Origin: Clostridiales bacterium
GTDB lineage: Bacteria > Bacillota_A > Clostridia > Saccharofermentanales > Saccharofermentanaceae
Reading direction: 5' to 3'
DNA length: 6,080 bases
NCBI GenBank assembly: GCA_024695545.1
Contig: JAILHZ010000144.1
Coordinates: 1-6,080 of the forward strand
Shown here: positions 2-6,080 of the stretch, piece by piece
How positions within the stretch are numbered: position 1 is the stretch's first letter
Layout of the letters: each line of letters starts with the position of its first letter
The notes under the pieces: model-generated
Told to the model about the DNA's origin: nothing
Databases searched by the model: none
The model's input: only the letters and a program-made list of their open reading frames with translations
Program-made: the position numbers and the translations under genes

Positions 2-922
2 TCTGTTATCACAGAATACCTCGGTTCTGCTGAAAATATCGTAGGTATCCACCCGGTATCTATGAGTGCTGCAGAGAATGGTCTTCTCGGCCAGATCTAT
101 CCTGAGATCCTTAAGGCAGATACCGGCTGGATCTCCGGTGATGAGGTCAACCTCGAAGAGCTCCTGCTTCTCAAGCCGGACATTGTCATCGGTGTTGGTG
201 AAGAGCAGGCAAAAGCGATCCGCGAGGCAGGCATCCCGGCACTGGCAACATCTGCGTCTGCCTGGAATTACGATATCATCGTTACCTATGAGCACTGGAT
301 CGATCTTCTCGATCAGGTATTTGGCGGCAGTGATTTTGCCAAGGCGGCAATGAGCAAGACAAACGAGATCCATGCAAATATTGTCGAGAAGACGAAGAAT
401 ATTAAGGACGAAGATAAGGCACGCGTACTCGTACTCTTTAAGTATTCAGATGCAGCGATGGTTGCTTCCGGTGTGAATTTCTTCGGACAGTGGTGGTGTG
501 AATCTGTCAATGCGTATAACGTTGCCAGCGAAGTAGACGGCGGATCGATCCTGAAGATCTCCATGGAGCAGGTATACCAGTGGAATCCGGATATCATTAT
601 CATCACGAATTTCTGCGGCACACAGCCAGAGGATCTTTATAACAACGCGATCGGAAATGATGACTGGAGCACCGTAAATGCGGTAAAGAACAAGAAGGTC
701 TATAAGATGCCTCTGGGTCTTTACAGAAGTTACACACCGGGTGGAGATACTCCGGTTACCATGCAGTGGATGGCACAGACAATCTATCCGGAACTCTTCT
801 CCGATATTGATATCCGTGAAGTTGCGAAGGCTTACTATAAGGAAATGTGCGGCTACGATCTTACTGATGCGCAGCTTGACATGATGTTCATTCCTTCCCG
901 CGATGCGGCCAGAGGTCTCTAA
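2..922 (+). CDS. Class-III ABC transporter substrate-binding protein (iron-complex/cobalamin type), 5'-truncated
   Basis: The frame is open from base 2 to the TAA at 920-922, so 306 residues are visible and the signal peptide and true start lie upstream. The ATG at 62 is an internal methionine: the residues before it (VITEYLGSAENIVGIHPVSM) are typical of the first lobe of COG0614 binding proteins. The family layout follows: lobe 1 with LLLLKPDIVIGVG, a long bridging helix (about visible residues 95-135), lobe 2 starting at ARVLVLF, then ISMEQVYQWNPDIIII and a C-terminal stretch with KNKKVYKMPLG and YPELFSDIDI. Proteins of this family are exported, usually lipid-anchored in Gram-positives, and deliver iron-siderophores, heme or corrinoids to a FecCD permease. 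The permease and ATPase genes follow directly, which fits. The ligand cannot be read from sequence; the WW-C and Tyr/Trp-rich second lobe might line the pocket (inference). Confidence 0.9.
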   Translation, partial: SVITEYLGSAENIVGIHPVSMSAAENGLLGQIYPEILKADTGWISGDEVNLEELLLLKPDIVIGVGEEQAKAIREAGIPALATSASAWNYDIIVTYEHWIDLLDQVFGGSDFAKAAMSKTNEIHANIVEKTKNIKDEDKARVLVLFKYSDAAMVASGVNFFGQWWCESVNAYNVASEVDGGSILKISMEQVYQWNPDIIIITNFCGTQPEDLYNNAIGNDDWSTVNAVKNKKVYKMPLGLYRSYTPGGDTPVTMQWMAQTIYPELFSDIDIREVAKAYYKEMCGYDLTDAQLDMMFIPSRDAARGL

Positions 923-930
923 TAGATCGT

Positions 931-943
931 AGGTGGGAATTTG
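931..943 (+). promoter_or_regulatory. Ribosome binding site and TTG start of the permease
   Basis: AGGTGGG at 931-937 lies 3-4 bases before a TTG codon at 941-943. No in-frame ATG nearby would give the usual FecCD N-terminus, and the TTG gives MKKKTEILWVIG, a normal charged start before the first membrane segment. The short spacing and non-ATG start may keep permease translation below that of the binding protein (inference). Confidence 0.6.
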
Positions 944-1939
944 AAGAAGAAAACAGAAATCTTATGGGTGATCGGTATTCTTGTGGCACTTGTGGCTTCC
1001 TTCATAGCGGCGCTGGTGATCGGAAGATACCAGATCCCGGTCAAAGACTGTGTCAAAGTCCTCCTTGGCATGAAGGTCGATGATCCGAATGTAAAAACCG
1101 TACTCTATAAGATCCGACTTCCGAGGTCGATCCTTGCGATCATTGCGGGAGCAGGTCTGGCAGTGGCCGGTGCGGCCTTTCAGAGCATGTTTTCGAACCC
1201 GCTGGCGACACCCGATACACTGGGCGTCGCCACGGGCGCTTCTTTCGGAGCGACACTCGGAATTATGTTCCATCTTCCTTCTCTGGGAATTCAGGGAACG
1301 GCATTCATCATGGGTCTTGTCGCAGTCGGACTGGTGTATATGATCAGCCGGGTCAAAGGTGAGTCCACTCTGGTTATGCTGATCCTTTCCGGTATGGTGA
1401 TCAGTTCGCTCTTCGAAGCATTGGTGTCTCTGATCAAGTATGTCGCCGATCCGCAGGATGTTCTTCCCGAGATCACATACTGGCTCATGGGAAGCCTGGC
1501 AGGCACCAGTTTCAAGAAACTCTATATCGGAACGATTCCGATGCTTATCGGTATCGTGATCCTTTTCTGCCTGAGATGGAAACTGAATGTCCTTTCATTG
1601 AATGATGATGAAGCAAAGGCAATGGGTATCAATCTCAAGCTTATGCGCGGACTGACCATCGTGTCCTCGACCATGATTACCGCTTCGGTAATCGCCATGT
1701 GCGGCAAGGTCGGCTGGATCGGTATTCTGATTCCGCATATCTCACGTATGATGTTCGGAAATAACAACAAATATGTTATTCCTGCCAGCATCGGACTGGG
1801 TGCGACGTATCTGCTCCTCATCGATACGATCGCAAGATCCGCGACGGCGGCAGAACTGCCGATATCCATACTTACAGCAATTCTCGGAGCACCTGTATTT
1901 ATCGTGCTCCTGCGTCGGACAGGAGGTGTGAAAACATGA
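941..1939 (+). CDS. FecCD-family ABC transporter permease
   Basis: This is a 332-residue, very hydrophobic protein of normal length for the FecCD/BtuC family, whose members have about ten membrane helices and act as homodimers. The first membrane segment is at residues 7-28. The family signature follows: RLPRSI at 59-64, then a GAGLAVAGAAFQ helix and NPLATPDTLG at 86-95. The loop DDEAKAMGINLKLMRG (about 222-237) is where these permeases contact the ATPase, and GWIGILIPHISR at 258-269 matches the conserved G-x-I-G-L-x-x-P-H-x-x-R block. The C-terminus ELPISILTAILGAPVFIVLL is also canonical. Its stop overlaps the ATPase start (ATGA at 1936-1939), so the two are translationally coupled. Known substrates of the family are iron-siderophores, heme, cobalamin and some metal chelates; the exact one is not determinable here. 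Confidence 0.95.
   Translation: MKKKTEILWVIGILVALVASFIAALVIGRYQIPVKDCVKVLLGMKVDDPNVKTVLYKIRLPRSILAIIAGAGLAVAGAAFQSMFSNPLATPDTLGVATGASFGATLGIMFHLPSLGIQGTAFIMGLVAVGLVYMISRVKGESTLVMLILSGMVISSLFEALVSLIKYVADPQDVLPEITYWLMGSLAGTSFKKLYIGTIPMLIGIVILFCLRWKLNVLSLNDDEAKAMGINLKLMRGLTIVSSTMITASVIAMCGKVGWIGILIPHISRMMFGNNNKYVIPASIGLGATYLLLIDTIARSATAAELPISILTAILGAPVFIVLLRRTGGVKT
1886..1910 (+). repeat. 7-bp inverted repeat in the last codons of the permease gene
   Basis: GGAGCAC (1886-1892) and GTGCTCC (1904-1910) are perfect inverted copies separated by 11 bases. In RNA this could form a hairpin ending 10 bases before the ATPase ribosome binding site. It is inside coding sequence and has no T-run, so it is not an intrinsic terminator. 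It may be chance. Confidence 0.4.
1921..1938 (+). promoter_or_regulatory. Strong ribosome binding site inside the permease 3' end
   Basis: AGGAGGTG at 1921-1928 is an almost full anti-Shine-Dalgarno match, 7 bases before the ATG at 1936. It lies inside the last codons of the permease gene and fixes the ATPase start at 1936, overlapping the permease stop. Confidence 0.8.
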
Positions 1940-2853
1940 ATTTCGAAGTCGAACATGCATCTTTTGGTTATAGAAAAGAACCTGATATCCTTAAGGATAT
2001 TCATTTCCAGATCGGAAAAGGTGAGATCCTTTCTATATTAGGTTCAAATGGTGTAGGTAAAACTACGCTTCTAAAGTGTACACTCGGTTTCCTGCCATGG
2101 AGATCAGGACAGACTCTGATCGACGGGAAGCCATGGGGTGAGTGGAAGAATCAGGATATCTGGAAAAGGATCGGCTATGTACCGCAGGCGAAAAGATCTG
2201 CGTTTTCCTATACGACGGAAGAGATGGTGCTGCTTGGCAGAAATGCCCATCTGGGACTTCTTTCCCAGCCAAGTAAGAAAGACTACGATCATGCGAAGGA
2301 GTGTCTCGAGATGGTCGGCATGAGCCGTCTGATCGGCAAGCTCTGTAATGAGATCTCCGGCGGTGAGTTGCAGATGGTCCTGATTGCCAGAGCACTGGCG
2401 ACAGATCCGGAGCTTCTGATCCTCGATGAGCCGGAATCGAATCTTGACTTTAAAAACCAGTTGATCGTTATTCATACGATCCGGGATCTTTGTAGAGAAC
2501 GGGGTATATCTTCCATAGTAAATACACATTATCCGGAACATGCGCTGGCGATCTCACATAAGGCGCTGATACTGAATAGAGATGGCACGAATGCTTTCGG
2601 CAATGCTGAAGAGATCATCAATGAAGAGCGTCTGGCCAAGGCTTTTGACGTAGATGTGCGTATCCGTTCCTTCATGGTGGCAGAGAATACGCACACGTGT
2701 GTACTTCCAATCGATATCGTCAGGAAAAGCACCCGTGAACGCGGCGATGGCGAGATCCGTGTAGCTATGGAAGAAGATGAACAGGAGTCGTACCGGGATA
2801 CCCGCAGAAAGCGGGTATCGAAGAAACAAACTATCAGGAAAGAGGTGAGCTGA
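1936..2853 (+). CDS. ABC transporter ATP-binding protein (FecE/BtuD-like) with a charged C-terminal tail
   Basis: This 305-residue ATPase powers the FecCD permease. All nucleotide-binding motifs are present: Walker A GSNGVGKTT at 36-44, Q-loop Q84 in RIGYVPQ, signature ISGGE at 140-144, Walker B LLILDEP at 160-166 with D164 and catalytic E165, D-loop SNLD at 168-171, and switch His198 in NTHYPEHA. ISGGE and the D-F-x-N-Q segment after the D-loop are usual for siderophore/cobalamin ATPases. Such proteins are usually about 250-265 residues; here roughly 45 more follow, acidic first (EEDEQES) and then strongly basic (RDTRRKRVSKK). That tail is unexplained and may be regulatory or protein-binding (inference). 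The start overlaps the permease stop, and the next gene begins two bases after its stop. Confidence 0.95.
   Translation: MNFEVEHASFGYRKEPDILKDIHFQIGKGEILSILGSNGVGKTTLLKCTLGFLPWRSGQTLIDGKPWGEWKNQDIWKRIGYVPQAKRSAFSYTTEEMVLLGRNAHLGLLSQPSKKDYDHAKECLEMVGMSRLIGKLCNEISGGELQMVLIARALATDPELLILDEPESNLDFKNQLIVIHTIRDLCRERGISSIVNTHYPEHALAISHKALILNRDGTNAFGNAEEIINEERLAKAFDVDVRIRSFMVAENTHTCVLPIDIVRKSTRERGDGEIRVAMEEDEQESYRDTRRKRVSKKQTIRKEVS
2794..2819 (+). repeat. 9-bp perfect inverted repeat with an alternative 4-bp stem, near the ATPase 3' end
   Basis: GATACCCGC (2797-2805) and GCGGGTATC (2811-2819) are perfect inverted copies with a 5-base loop (AGAAA). An upstream CGGG (2794-2797) could instead pair with CCCG (2801-2804), so two mutually exclusive stems are possible. 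It lies in the basic-tail codons of the ATPase, 36 bases before the next gene, between the transporter genes and the three intracellular genes. There is no T-run after it. A role in mRNA processing, stability or attenuation is inference. Confidence 0.5.
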
Positions 2854-2855
2854 AG

Positions 2856-3809
2856 ATGAGTGTTTGTGAAATGAATGAGGAACTCCACTATACTGCGGAG
2901 AATAAAAATGCAGGATTCCTGGGACGTGTTCCATGCGTAGTCCAGCTGCCGTTTCAGGATTATCTGGACAGCATCTTCAAGAGCCGCGAAGAGTATAACA
3001 TTGCGCTGGCCGAATTTGGGGTGGACTGGCTGAAGAATGTGTTTGAGACTTGCGACCCGGATGTGCTGATGGGCGCGGGAATCGAAGGTTTTGTTTCCGA
3101 ACCGGAAATCGAGAAGAGAGGATACACCAGAGTGCATCCTGAACTTCTGGACAATCCGGACTTCCGGGATTTCAAAGATCCCAAAGGAATCTTCGATATA
3201 TATTCCTGTATTCCGCTGGTCATGGTTGTCGATAAGATGGCGGCAGCAGGAAGAGAGCTTCCGAAGAGCTTCGCTGATCTTCTTTCTCCGGAATATGCCC
3301 ATTCGATCGTGTTTCCGGATGACGGGCACATGTTCGATGGGATCATTCTGACCTATGTTCACCAGGTGGCCGGTGATGAGGGAATAAAGCGACTTCGTGA
3401 AAATATCCACTCGATCGTTCATCCCTCGCAGATGATCAAGCCGGGCGGAGTGGAAGGAAAGCCTTTTATCTATGTGATGCCGTGGATCTTCGGGACAATC
3501 AAAGCGCGTCAGGCATATATGGAACTGATCTGGTTTTCCGATGGTGCACCGATCCTTCCTGTTGTGGTTACCAGTAAGAATACGCCTTGCGCAGAATCAA
3601 TGACCAAGGGCCTCTTTTCGAAAAAAGCAGGAGAGATCTTCAGAAATGACGGATTCTTCCCGAGTAATGTCACGGATGTAGATAACCGGCTTCCGGGGAA
3701 ACTCCGTTTTGTCGGCTGGGATTATATCTATCGTGAAGAGCTTCCTGAAATCATTGCCCGCTGTAAATCACTGATATCCGGGGATGACCCGGACAGCGGG
3801 AACAAGTGA
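2856..3809 (+). CDS. Cytosolic solute-binding-protein-like protein (AfuA/ThiB/PotD-type fold), no signal peptide
   Basis: This 317-residue protein resembles the COG1840-type binding proteins of iron, thiamine and polyamine importers. The clearest match is LPKSFADLLSPEYAHSI with VFPDDG (residues 135-156), the hinge-region block normally read as P-x-S-W-x-D-L-L-D-P-x-Y-x-G-K-I. The C-terminal half (AESMTKGLFSKKAGEIF with NDGFFPSN) matches their usual 'A-x-x-F-x-x-F-L-x-S-x-x-G-Q-x-I-x-x-x-x-G-F-x-P' ending. The N-terminus is polar (MSVCEMNEELHYTAENK) with no hydrophobic segment and no lipobox, so it should stay in the cytosol. The ATG at 2856 is preceded by AGAGGTG at 2841-2847; ATG 2871 is a less likely alternative and also gives no signal. 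It sits two bases after the ATPase and just before a metallochaperone-like GTPase. An intracellular carrier or sensor of the imported ligand is plausible (inference); the ligand is unknown. Confidence 0.75.
   Translation: MSVCEMNEELHYTAENKNAGFLGRVPCVVQLPFQDYLDSIFKSREEYNIALAEFGVDWLKNVFETCDPDVLMGAGIEGFVSEPEIEKRGYTRVHPELLDNPDFRDFKDPKGIFDIYSCIPLVMVVDKMAAAGRELPKSFADLLSPEYAHSIVFPDDGHMFDGIILTYVHQVAGDEGIKRLRENIHSIVHPSQMIKPGGVEGKPFIYVMPWIFGTIKARQAYMELIWFSDGAPILPVVVTSKNTPCAESMTKGLFSKKAGEIFRNDGFFPSNVTDVDNRLPGKLRFVGWDYIYREELPEIIARCKSLISGDDPDSGNK
3777..3793 (+). repeat. 6-bp inverted repeat near the 3' end of the cytosolic binding-protein gene
   Basis: TCCGGG (3777-3782) and CCCGGA (3788-3793) are perfect inverted copies around a 5-base loop, 13 bases before the stop codon. 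A hairpin there would precede the ribosome binding region of the GTPase gene. It is GC-rich but has no T-run. It may be chance. Confidence 0.35.
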
Positions 3810-3831
3810 GTTGAGGAATGGAGACTAAGAC

Positions 3832-4515
3832 ATGAAACTTGTAACTTTCGCGGGTCCTCCTGCGACCGGGAAGACGACGGTCATGACCCGTATCGTAAAA
3901 GAACTGGAGAATTTGGGCAACCGCATCGGAGCATGCAAATTCGATTGCCTTCAGACAGAAGATGACAAACTATACGCTGCGTCCGGCATCCCTTCCATCA
4001 AGGGATTGTCGGCGGAGCTCTGTCCCGACCATTATTACATTACCAACATTCAGCTGGTATATGACTGGGGGCAAAAGGAAGGATTTGACTTCCTGTTTAC
4101 AGAGAGTGCCGGGCTTTGTAACCGCTGCTCTCCGTATATTAAAAACGTACTGTCCGTATGTGTGATCGATCAGCTCTCCGGGATCCATGCCCCGAGGAAG
4201 ATCGGACCGCTTCTGAAACTGGCGGATATTGTTCTGATTACCAAAGGGGACATCGTTTCTCAGGCGGAGCGCGAAGTTTTCTTAAGAAGAGTGGAGATCT
4301 CCAATCCCAGAGCGCGCATCTTCCACGTAAACGGATTGACCGGTCAGGGTATATCCGAAGTGGCAAACTCGATCCGGGAACTGGCGCAAGAGAGAAATAT
4401 CGACAATGAGACACTTCGTTTTCCGATGCCGATGGCGCTTTGCTCCTATTGCCTGGGTGAAACCAAGATCGGTAAGGAATACCAGATCGGAAACGTCAAG
4501 CATATAAAGCTCTGA
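3832..4515 (+). CDS. UreG/HypB-like P-loop GTPase, Cys-rich, putative metallochaperone
   Basis: This 227-residue protein follows UreG, the GTPase that delivers nickel to urease, block by block. P-loop GPPATGKT is at 8-15. T-E-D-D (42-45) is followed by E-L-C-P-D-H (62-67), corresponding to UreG T-x-E-D and its metal-binding C-P-H. FTESAGLCNRCSPY (89-102) corresponds to the E-S-G-G-D-N...F-S-P-E segment. VIDQLSGIHAPRKIGP (111-126) corresponds to V-I-D-x-x-x-G-D-x-x-P-R-K-G-G-P, and ITKGD (136-140) stands in for the N-K-x-D base-recognition motif. UreG normally has few cysteines; here there are C35, C39, C64, C96/C99, C110 and a C-terminal C204/C207 pair, suggesting thiol metal or cluster binding. 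The G4 Asn-to-Thr change could alter guanine specificity. ATG 3832 is preceded by GGAG at 3820-3823. No urease or hydrogenase gene is in view, so the client is unknown. Confidence 0.8.
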   Translation: MKLVTFAGPPATGKTTVMTRIVKELENLGNRIGACKFDCLQTEDDKLYAASGIPSIKGLSAELCPDHYYITNIQLVYDWGQKEGFDFLFTESAGLCNRCSPYIKNVLSVCVIDQLSGIHAPRKIGPLLKLADIVLITKGDIVSQAEREVFLRRVEISNPRARIFHVNGLTGQGISEVANSIRELAQERNIDNETLRFPMPMALCSYCLGETKIGKEYQIGNVKHIKL

Positions 4516-4550
4516 GAAAATCACAGTTAATCCCGAAAGGACATCTATCC

Positions 4551-5537
4551 ATGATCAAGACAAATCTTAAAGATCTTCTGATCTCCTGCCCGTATATTTC
4601 ATATTATCTCGATGATTTTGAAGAGGATTTTGATAAAGAGATTTCTTTTGAAGAAAACCTCCGAAAGTTTCCGGATTATTTCTTCGAACAGAGAAAAATG
4701 AGCCGGGAGGAAGTCGCAGAAGAATTCGAGACGTACATTCGAGCAGCACAGGAGAGGCTTCATCAGGAGATCAAGAGCGTAACATCTGTGACGATCCTTC
4801 CGGGACGCGGAAAGGACGGAACAAAGGAGATTTTTGATCCGATTGAGATCCGGAAGGGCGAAATGGTGGCGATCGTCGGTGAAACCGGAAGCGGAAAAAG
4901 CCGTCTTCTGGAAGATATTGAATGGCAGGCGATGGGGGATACCCCCACGGGCAGGACAGTTCTCATCGACGGGATGAAAAAGACCGAGTATCGAAGGAAA
5001 GGCGGACGCTCACGTGCAATCGCACAGCTTTCCCAGAATATGAATTTTGTTCTCGACATGAATGTCGGGGAATTCCTTACCATGCATGCTGAGTGTTTCC
5101 TTAGAAAAGAGGAGATCCCGGAGAAAGTTCAAAAGGTATATGATGTTGCCGCTTCTCTGGCAGGAGAGACTTTCTCCATGGATACAGCGGTCACAGCTTT
5201 AAGCGGGGGACAGTCACGTGCTCTGATGATCGCAGACTGTGCTTTTCTTTCCCGTGCACCGATCGTGCTGATCGACGAGATCGAAAACGCCGGCATCGAC
5301 AGAAGACGAGCCATGGATCTTCTGACTGGTAACGATAAGATCGTACTTATCGCGACGCATGACCCGATCCTCTCGCTTATGGCTCCGAAACGTATCACGA
5401 TCCGAAACGGTGGTATTTCCAGCATTCTGCTTCGTGATGAGCAGGAAGAGGCTGTGCTTCTCCGTGCAGAGAAGATGGATCATGAACTGATGATCCTTCG
5501 GAATGCGATCCGAAGAGGAGAGAGGATATCTATCTGA
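4551..5537 (+). CDS. Stand-alone ABC ATPase with an extra N-terminal domain, no partner permease
   Basis: This 328-residue protein has a polar, acidic N-terminal domain (about 1-75) and then one ABC domain. Walker A GETGSGKS is at 110-117, a Q-loop candidate at Q159 or Q162, signature LSGGQ at 217-221, Walker B IVLIDE at 238-243 with catalytic E243, an AGID segment at 247-250 in the D-loop position, and switch His270 in ATHDP. No membrane protein is encoded nearby to serve it, and it has no membrane segment. Known soluble ABC proteins without permeases include SufC (Fe-S assembly) and component A2 of methyl-CoM reductase activation, so ATP-driven cofactor assembly or protein remodelling is a reasonable guess (inference). 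The N-terminal segment (P14 onward, then SREEVAEEF at 51-59) faintly recalls DUF1858/ScdA-N helical domains but lacks their cysteines. The ribosome binding site AAAGGA (4536-4541) is 9 bases before the ATG; the 35-base gap to the GTPase gene shows no promoter. Confidence 0.8.
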   Translation: MIKTNLKDLLISCPYISYYLDDFEEDFDKEISFEENLRKFPDYFFEQRKMSREEVAEEFETYIRAAQERLHQEIKSVTSVTILPGRGKDGTKEIFDPIEIRKGEMVAIVGETGSGKSRLLEDIEWQAMGDTPTGRTVLIDGMKKTEYRRKGGRSRAIAQLSQNMNFVLDMNVGEFLTMHAECFLRKEEIPEKVQKVYDVAASLAGETFSMDTAVTALSGGQSRALMIADCAFLSRAPIVLIDEIENAGIDRRRAMDLLTGNDKIVLIATHDPILSLMAPKRITIRNGGISSILLRDEQEEAVLLRAEKMDHELMILRNAIRRGERISI

Positions 5538-5593: not shown

Positions 5594-5609
5594 GTTAGCG
5601 AAGGCTAAC
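5594..5609 (+). promoter_or_regulatory. Leader hairpin at the predicted 5' end of the regulator mRNA
   Basis: GTTAGC (5594-5599), loop GAAG, and GCTAAC (5604-5609) form a perfect 6-bp stem. It begins 7 bases after the -10 box, so it would sit at the very 5' end of the transcript and leave the ribosome binding site (GAGAGG, 5617-5622) free. The bases after it (ATTTGAC) are not a T-run, so it is a poor terminator for the upstream operon. A 5'-end stability element, or a DNA operator overlapping the start site, are both possible. Confidence 0.4.
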
Positions 5610-5628: not shown

Positions 5629-6080
5629 ATGACTAAGATTCATTTCAGCGATACGTATATTACTGTCATGCCATCTTATGAGCAGACGAAGGAGCATAGC
5701 CACAGTATGCTTCATGTTTTTTTCGGGAAAGACACGCTGAAACTTGATGATACCTATGGCAGAATGATCATTCTTGAACAGAATGTCATTCATAAGCGTC
5801 CGGAAGGAGAGATATTCTTCTTCCTTTTTGTAGACCCGACCTCACGTCTGGCAGAGATCCTTCGAAAGAATTATTTGAAAGGCGATAAGGTATTTGCAAC
5901 GATGAATATGTCTTTGTTGATCGAATCAGCCTGTAAGGCAGGAGAAGAATGCTCCATGGAGAGAATTGAGAACTGTCTTACTGATCTCTTCGGTGAGGTG
6001 TTGCACACCAAAAGAGACGGAATCGATCCGCGTGTTCTTCCCATCCTTGAGAAGGCGGACAGATTTGAGTATCTGGATAA
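5629..6080 (+). CDS. AraC-family transcriptional regulator, N-terminal part (3'-truncated)
   Basis: The frame opens at ATG 5629 with GAGAGG at 5617-5622 (6-base spacing) and stays open to the window end, giving 150 residues with no stop. The N-terminus looks like an AraC-type cupin sensor domain: HSH at 23-25, His29, a short beta-rich stretch, ILEQNVIHKRP with His55 (48-58), and IFFFLFVDP (62-70). A helical linker follows, and DPRVLPILEKADR (133-145) resembles the start of the first helix of the AraC DNA-binding domain, which would lie beyond the window. Full-length members are about 260-300 residues. The His residues could bind a metal or simply be the cupin fold's conserved positions. Its location just after the metal-handling operon, with its own promoter, suggests a local regulator, but it might instead control genes further downstream. 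The family call is moderate because the helix-turn-helix is not visible. Confidence 0.6.
   Translation, partial: MTKIHFSDTYITVMPSYEQTKEHSHSMLHVFFGKDTLKLDDTYGRMIILEQNVIHKRPEGEIFFFLFVDPTSRLAEILRKNYLKGDKVFATMNMSLLIESACKAGEECSMERIENCLTDLFGEVLHTKRDGIDPRVLPILEKADRFEYLD

Follow-up and report, generated by a model that had tools for sequence, protein, structure and literature searches.

We examined a 6,080-nucleotide stretch from the genome of a gut Clostridiales bacterium (assembly GCA_024695545.1, contig JAILHZ010000144.1; hereafter the window), in which the genes of a FecBCD-type importer run into genes for a cytosolic protein with a binding-protein fold, a UreG/HypB-like GTPase and a soluble ABC ATPase. 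These three genes (hereafter the set) are a conserved unit, and in close relatives of the window they are accompanied by nitrogenase-like genes and by palindromes that probably mark an iron regulon. The linkage of the set and its regulation are well supported, and we infer that it delivers a metal cofactor. Our best reading, which we hold to be about as likely as not, is that it forms a cytosolic module, so far uncharacterised, for moving iron or an iron-sulfur (Fe-S) precursor, and that it acts in nitrogenase-like import here and in stress repair elsewhere.

The survey covered 81 loci, comprising the best 80 of at least 577 confirmed GTPase relatives from a scan of genome contigs and one public record. 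The GTPase gene was located by tblastn in all 81, including five loci (L056, L062, L065, L066 and L075) where an open reading frame pass had missed it. The GTPase and ABC ATPase genes adjoin in 81/81 loci. Of these, 79 also have the binding-protein gene, and the two that lack it (L035 and L061) have the GTPase gene at a contig end. The order binding protein, GTPase, ATPase holds in 75 of these 79, the deviating loci being L017, L019, L030 and L065. Sets were found across many phyla, and the GTPase of Deferribacter is still 57–58% identical. The initial annotation had proposed that the three intracellular genes belong together, and would have abandoned the idea if their homologues were scattered in other genomes; they do occur together. 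It had also joined the set to an importer. This holds in several lineages, but a FecCD permease gene lies within 9 kb of the set in only 16 of the 81 loci. Thus, most copies have no nearby FecCD, and the set is not mainly an importer accessory.

The window carries the following genes, all on the forward strand. The importer comprises the 3' part of a gene for a FecB/BtuF-like substrate-binding lipoprotein (2..922; PF01497, 1.1e-17), a FecCD permease gene with a TTG start (941..1939; PF01032, 1.4e-87) and an ATPase gene of the FecE/BtuD type (1936..2853; PF00005, 2.8e-30). The lipoprotein gene is full length in a near-identical relative of the window, contig JAFWSW010000005.1 of a metagenome-assembled genome from sheep omasum (locus L002), where it encodes 414 aa with a lipoprotein-type N-terminus. 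By Pfam domains and the locus survey the importer is thus complete, with binding protein, permease and ATPase together. The permease and ATPase genes overlap by 4 bp. The binding-protein gene of the set follows after 2 bp (2856..3809; SBP_bac_6, ferric-binding-protein class, 2.6e-36), the GTPase gene after 22 bp (3832..4515; cobW/HypB/UreG Pfam domain, 5e-08) and the ABC ATPase gene after 35 bp (4551..5537; ABC_tran, with a helical N-terminal domain of ~75 residues). Open reading frames, gene order and gaps agree with the earlier reading of 1936..5537, and with the Pfam domains they confirm that the importer genes run with short gaps into three intracellular genes. Promoter-like sites are not in excess inside the window (8 against 6.4 expected). 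Terminator-like sites number 11 against 4.0 expected, and an internal terminator is possible. No riboswitch or other RNA family reached the gathering score in the window or L002.

In L002, genes for a NifH-like and two NifD/K-like proteins (nflHDK) precede fecBCD, which is followed by the set. They match PF00142 (2.6e-92) and, twice, PF00148, which is the make-up of a nitrogenase-like reductase; models of nitrogen-fixing nitrogenase are not reached in L002 (nifH 331.9 against a cut-off of 394.35, nifD 25.5 against 653.55). The initial annotation had found no client enzyme in the window and left the target open. Indeed none is encoded there, but nflHDK, as seen in L002, are a candidate client just upstream. 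A survey for a constant neighbouring enzyme had been suggested, and the nfl genes are constant in the nine window-type loci (L002–L010): NflD and NflK are encoded beside the set in 9/9, and NflH in eight, with L004 ending at a contig edge. The nfl genes lie upstream of the set in L002–L007 and downstream in L008–L010. In our view the odds are about even that the window represents the 3' portion of a gene run under iron control, composed of nflH-nflD-nflK, the FecBCD importer and the set; nflH through the ABC ATPase gene may be transcribed as one operon.

In the family to which the window's relative belongs, eight of 115 genomes encode the GTPase, and these same eight encode an NflD at least 66% identical (Fisher p 1.7e-12, uncorrected for relatedness). 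NflD homologues, mostly distant, were found in 49 of the 115 (E up to 1e-15), and the 41 further genomes have homologues no more than 33% identical and lack the GTPase. In 200 sampled genomes from the family of genome G009, nine encode the GTPase and 21 an NflD homologue, with a single genome in common, whose NflD is 61% identical. Thus, the set goes with one Nfl clade, as it co-occurs with close NflD proteins rather than with distant homologues. Most of the Nfl units retrieved without the set also adjoin importer genes: FecCD and FecE are encoded in 7/9 wider loci (the exceptions are L109 and L110), and FecE and a binding protein at the edges of 4/4 short loci. More than 20 genomes of the 115-genome family lack the GTPase and carry two distant NflD homologues on a single contig, spaced by ~7 kb.

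NflH has a P-loop, and cysteines 120 and 156, which we take to be Fe-S ligands, are invariant in 15 grouped rows of 18; NflD and NflK retain some cysteines near their N-termini. These features are shared with CfbCD, DPOR and MarHDK, from which the Nfl proteins here differ in forming a clade of their own that is linked to a FecBCD importer and to an iron box. One report describes MarDK as group IV-C of nitrogenase-like proteins (PMC9147875), and another places Mar-like genes near mlp clusters in group IV-A (PMC10418091).

Upstream of nflH in the window-type loci examined is a palindrome, GTTAGn6CTAAC (the box), preceded at 48–49 bp by a second palindrome, GTTGCn4GCAAC, which has one mismatch in L002. 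In L008–L010, where the set is a separate unit, similar sites precede the set itself: an exact box in L009 and a box with one mismatch in L008, each accompanied at a distance of 40 bp by the second palindrome with one mismatch, and in L010 the second palindrome with one mismatch and a more degenerate box. A two-palindrome pattern, loosened to admit the L008 variant, was searched in nine whole genomes. By coordinates, its 11 matches are nine before nflH and two before the separate set (G007 and G008), and the reversed control gave 0. The pattern was derived from these same promoters, and the informative point is that nothing else matched. Because the paired palindromes matched only nflH and set promoters, it is well supported that the set and the nitrogenase-like genes share one predicted regulon.

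The single box occurs 14–44 times per genome in the nine genomes, against 0–4 for the reversed control. Every one of the eight genomes in which feoB was found has the box in front of one feoB or more (12 of 23 feoB loci, against 0 for the control in 76 kb); the ninth genome has no FeoB above threshold. Targets scanned include genes for FeoA, FeoB, DUF3793, a Trep_Strep membrane protein, an ABC exporter and an HMA protein. These promoter sequences give good support to the prediction that GTTAGn6CTAAC marks an iron regulon. Boxes also adjoin genes for enolase and xylose isomerase in L002 (L002:14438 and L002:17431), so the regulon appears wider than iron uptake. In the window, the box is the palindrome GTTAGCGAAGGCTAAC (5594..5609, no strand), in front of the 5' part of a gene for an AraC-family regulator (5629..6078, forward strand), which encodes 233 aa in L002 (PF12833, 2.1e-16 for that copy). 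A divergent gene for a CRP/FNR-family regulator (L002:1702–2409, reverse strand) shares an intergenic region with nflH, and similar genes were read by eye in L120, L132 and L102. We do not name it HcpR, as it is only 21% identical to the CRP-type gene beside the L080 set.

Many copies of the set that stand alone show a different regulatory signature. The HcpR motif published in 2005, GTAACn4GTTAC (PMC1274295), occurs exactly in 20 of 72 regions upstream of the set, counted over all set types (shuffle expectation 0.0). The 81 loci hold 36 exact sites (~1.3 expected; control 2), of which 20 are before the set, 13 before hcp and three elsewhere. Among 30 further Fusobacteriota loci, from 55 genomes with a match, the site precedes the set in 19 of the 26 that could be evaluated; three of the 26 duplicate DNA already in the first group, and the count without them is 17/23. 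The seven loci without it include a Leptotrichia copy (L175). It is therefore well supported that many standalone sets carry predicted HcpR-type (nitric oxide) sites. This resembles the HcpR regulon, with the difference that in the 2005 reconstruction the HcpR2 regulons predicted for F. nucleatum and other taxa hold only hcp genes (PMC1274295). None of the 36 exact sites is in L002–L010, and the window has no exact site and one match with a single mismatch, inside the ABC ATPase gene. A YgbA_NO-type gene, a hint of nitrogen oxides, lies beside the set in L044, L047, L050 and L073 (Deferribacterota and one Desulfuromonadaceae genome). The predicted regulatory sites point to iron and, elsewhere, to nitric oxide stress, and not to nickel.

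In an alternative that we regard as possible but doubtful, the set would be a maturation or repair machine for complex Fe-S enzymes, acting on the NflDK cluster here and on others, including Hcp, elsewhere. The importer would then feed metal, and Nfl would be the client rather than the iron-releasing enzyme. The UreG/HypB-like GTPase and the HcpR-type sites before both the set and hcp are consistent with this, and Hcp is encoded within 9 kb of the set in 17 of the 81 loci (16 by one seed, one by a short-Hcp seed). However, the GTPase and Hcp are distributed independently in 98 Fusobacteriota genomes (37 with both, 18 with the GTPase only, 28 with Hcp only, 15 with neither; p 0.83; genome completeness not given). 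Sets behind HcpR-type sites also occur in four genomes, of completeness not given, with no Hcp over the cut-off (G371, G377, G413 and G415). Most genomes with NflD homologues lack the GTPase. Hcp was found in 0/9 rumen-type genomes (G001–G009) by a search with matches in 12 of 24 genomes; given this and the independent distribution, Hcp was rejected as a universal client.

Evidence for a link to Fe-S assembly, which would suit both maturation and the mechanism set out below, comes from Bacteroidota. In one order, 16 of 198 sampled genomes encode the GTPase (E up to 1e-60), in ten cases a diverged form (39–44% identical). Beside the ten diverged Bacteroidales pairs of GTPase and ATPase genes, a cysteine desulfurase gene adjoins in nine and a gene for an FeS-domain protein in eight. 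The desulfurase of L193 passes the IscS-subfamily cut-off, and no binding-protein gene was matched in these diverged loci. Such pairs beside a desulfurase and an FeS-domain protein were seen in loci L183–L196 and L199, and in L195 CysE/EpsC- and CysK-type genes also follow. The permease-less ABC ATPase, its adjoining desulfurase and a structural match to SmsC recall the SufBCD and SMS systems, but that structural match is generic. No SufB/SufD-like gene was noticed among the neighbours read, and no search aimed at SufB/SufD was made.

The GTPase and ABC ATPase are fused in a single 529-aa frame in L112 (L112:6965–8554, reverse strand), directly behind genes for a binding protein, FecCD and FecE. 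This genome, from the family of G009, also holds a standalone copy (L111). In a FecCD tree the Nfl-type permeases, including that of L002, form a clade of 14 rows (support 100/99), apart from the permeases of L112, L115, L018 and Chlorobi. Thus, the set came to lie with importers on more than one occasion. The well-supported parts of the GTPase tree agree with this; that tree has long branches (L118 above all) and uncertain deep joins, and only well-supported clades were used.

The binding protein of the set has no signal segment, as hydropathy indicates. The best 15-residue mean near its N-terminus is 1.21, against 2.59 for the L002 lipoprotein, and 71 relatives have a maximum of 1.65 and a median of 0.59. 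This supports a cytosolic location, as first annotated. Cys27 (nt 2934–2936) and His189 (nt 3420–3422) are invariant in 33/33 rows. Most best Foldseek matches of the structural model (pLDDT 89.3) are ferric-binding proteins such as FutA and FbpA (E ~1e-12). Its modelled fold thus resembles FbpA/FutA, but the hydrophobic signal segment expected of an exported, periplasmic FbpA is missing, and the invariant Cys and His set it apart. Standalone relatives also differ in a longer N-terminus: they are mostly ~400 residues, some 90 longer than the window copy, which lacks the extra part, and the one scanned has an N-terminal DUF1858. An SBP_bac_6 domain and an ABC ATPase would also be found in an ordinary ferric importer of the FbpABC type that merely sits behind a second importer. 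We consider this extremely unlikely, since the binding protein has no signal peptide and has the invariant residues named above, the ABC ATPase (4551–5537) has no permease partner within the window and its relative in L112 is fused to the GTPase, and the set is conserved in many phyla.

The GTPase has a CPDH motif (4021–4032), a CxxC pair within GLCxRC (4117–4128) and a second CxxC pair (4441–4452). CPDH is invariant in 13/13 rows and in 9/9 diverged rows, and both CxxC pairs are invariant in the nine diverged rows. Together, these motifs are a candidate metal site. The ABC ATPase keeps its Walker, signature and H-loop motifs, and its structural matches, including SmsC, are only generic.

In the mechanism that we envisage, FecBCD would import an iron-bearing chelate, siderophore-like or tetrapyrrole-like, and NflH with NflDK would carry out an ATP-driven, low-potential reduction of the chelate or its metal. 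The cytosolic ferric-binding-fold protein could then hold the released iron or chelate via its invariant Cys and His, and the GTPase and soluble ABC ATPase, acting as one machine, would supply cluster assembly, or the client, with iron or an Fe-S precursor. More tentatively, with confidence somewhat short of even, we propose that the GTPase and ABC ATPase form an unrecognised machine, widespread among anaerobes, in which hydrolysis of GTP and ATP is coupled to the loading of iron or Fe-S units. This machine would have been placed behind FecBCD more than once, under an iron regulon with a nitrogenase-like reductase, under a nitric oxide regulon and beside cysteine desulfurase, and in the window it would complete nitrogenase-like assimilation of an iron chelate.

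Several observations weigh against the mechanism that we envisage. The GTPase is missing from 41 of 49 and 20 of 21 genomes with NflD homologues in the two families, so Nfl in general does not require the set. The top Foldseek match of the binding protein is P5PA, presumably a pyridoxal-phosphate binder, and sugar-phosphate, thiamin and spermidine binders are also listed; because the matches mix ligands, the fold alone leaves iron unfixed. Compared over the entire fold, the solved structures nearest to the GTPase are those of UreG and HypB. No box was found upstream of nflH in L098–L101, L105 and L107, where nflH follows FecE and its promoter may lie elsewhere. Many standalone copies have HcpR-type sites, and an exact iron box precedes the set in none of the standalone loci checked near the set, so a single cargo for all copies is an assumption. 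DtxR was considered as the regulator of the box and not adopted: the half-sites are alike, but they are 6 bp apart rather than 1 bp as in the published consensus (PMC1382209). MoeA-like or ModD-type (molybdenum) genes lie near some sets (L115, L019, L042 and L045), and SUMT is encoded in 6/81 loci (five Chlorobi and one Bacteroidota). Because of these molybdenum-type and SUMT genes, another metal or a tetrapyrrole could be the cargo.

In another alternative, the set would handle an imported tetrapyrrole or corrinoid, with a metal inserted or removed or the ring modified, and Nfl acting like CfbCD or DPOR. NflH is near the NifH and CfbC models (below both cut-offs) and NflD weakly matches BchN models, the FecCD models closest to the permease are those for B12, siderophores and the like, and in Chlorobi SUMT is found in clusters that combine TonB, FecBCD and the set. 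We judge this unlikely: few of the loci encode SUMT, the box ties the predicted operon to feoB, and the box targets read included no gene recognisable as part of a tetrapyrrole pathway.

UreG and HypB are nickel proteins, and a Cys-Pro-His motif has a role in nickel binding. A nickel (or molybdenum) metallochaperone set like UreG/HypB, serving an unseen metal enzyme, would account for the GTPase-domain profile match and the nearest solved structures, and the Cys-Pro of CPDH aligns with that of the UreG CPH site, with the His one residue later. A ~80-aa CxxC protein is encoded after the standalone set in 42/81 loci (L026:11832–12083 and relatives). The one copy scanned has a weak HypA match (E 0.0016), which recalls HypA-HypB, and ModD or MoeA-like genes near a few loci would suit molybdenum. 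However, the GTPase scores far under the NCBIfam cut-offs (hypB 35.5 bits against 121.2; ureG 21 against 204.2) and has two extra CxxC pairs, and its partners here are an ABC ATPase and a binding-protein fold. The CxxC protein is under the HypA cut-off, is not found in window-type loci and also has other partners than HypA. Of the few neighbours annotated or read, none was identified as a gene for urease, NiFe hydrogenase or CO dehydrogenase; for urease and hydrogenase this covers the genes inspected in L002 and in a handful of further loci. The predicted regulation is by an iron box and nitric oxide-type sites. The analogy with nickel sets is weakened by the UreG/HypB scores, and such a role is very improbable.

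The literature searched, which leaves out most subscription papers, described neither the set nor a combination of Nfl and FecBCD under an iron regulon, in line with the first impression that this is not a described pathway. Nor is a role given there to the FecBCD-linked nitrogenase-like kind, and its tie to an importer and an iron regulon opens that role to direct testing. Conservation of the GTPase-ATPase pair is deep, the pair lies within predicted iron and nitric oxide regulons, and no describing paper was found in the literature searched. If the pair does load iron or Fe-S units, it would join the few machines of this kind and account for the way in which some anaerobes restore metal centres under nitric oxide.

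Two further observations concern individual loci. In L115, a standalone set lies ~2.4 kb from genes for FecCD and FecE, which adjoin a DUF364 gene (putative heavy-metal chelation, according to Pfam) and a MoeA-like gene that scores below cut-offs (L115:658–4524). The 2.1-Mb record NZ_CP084075.1 (L001) of Fusobacterium vincentii is labelled a plasmid and, judged by size, looks like a chromosome.

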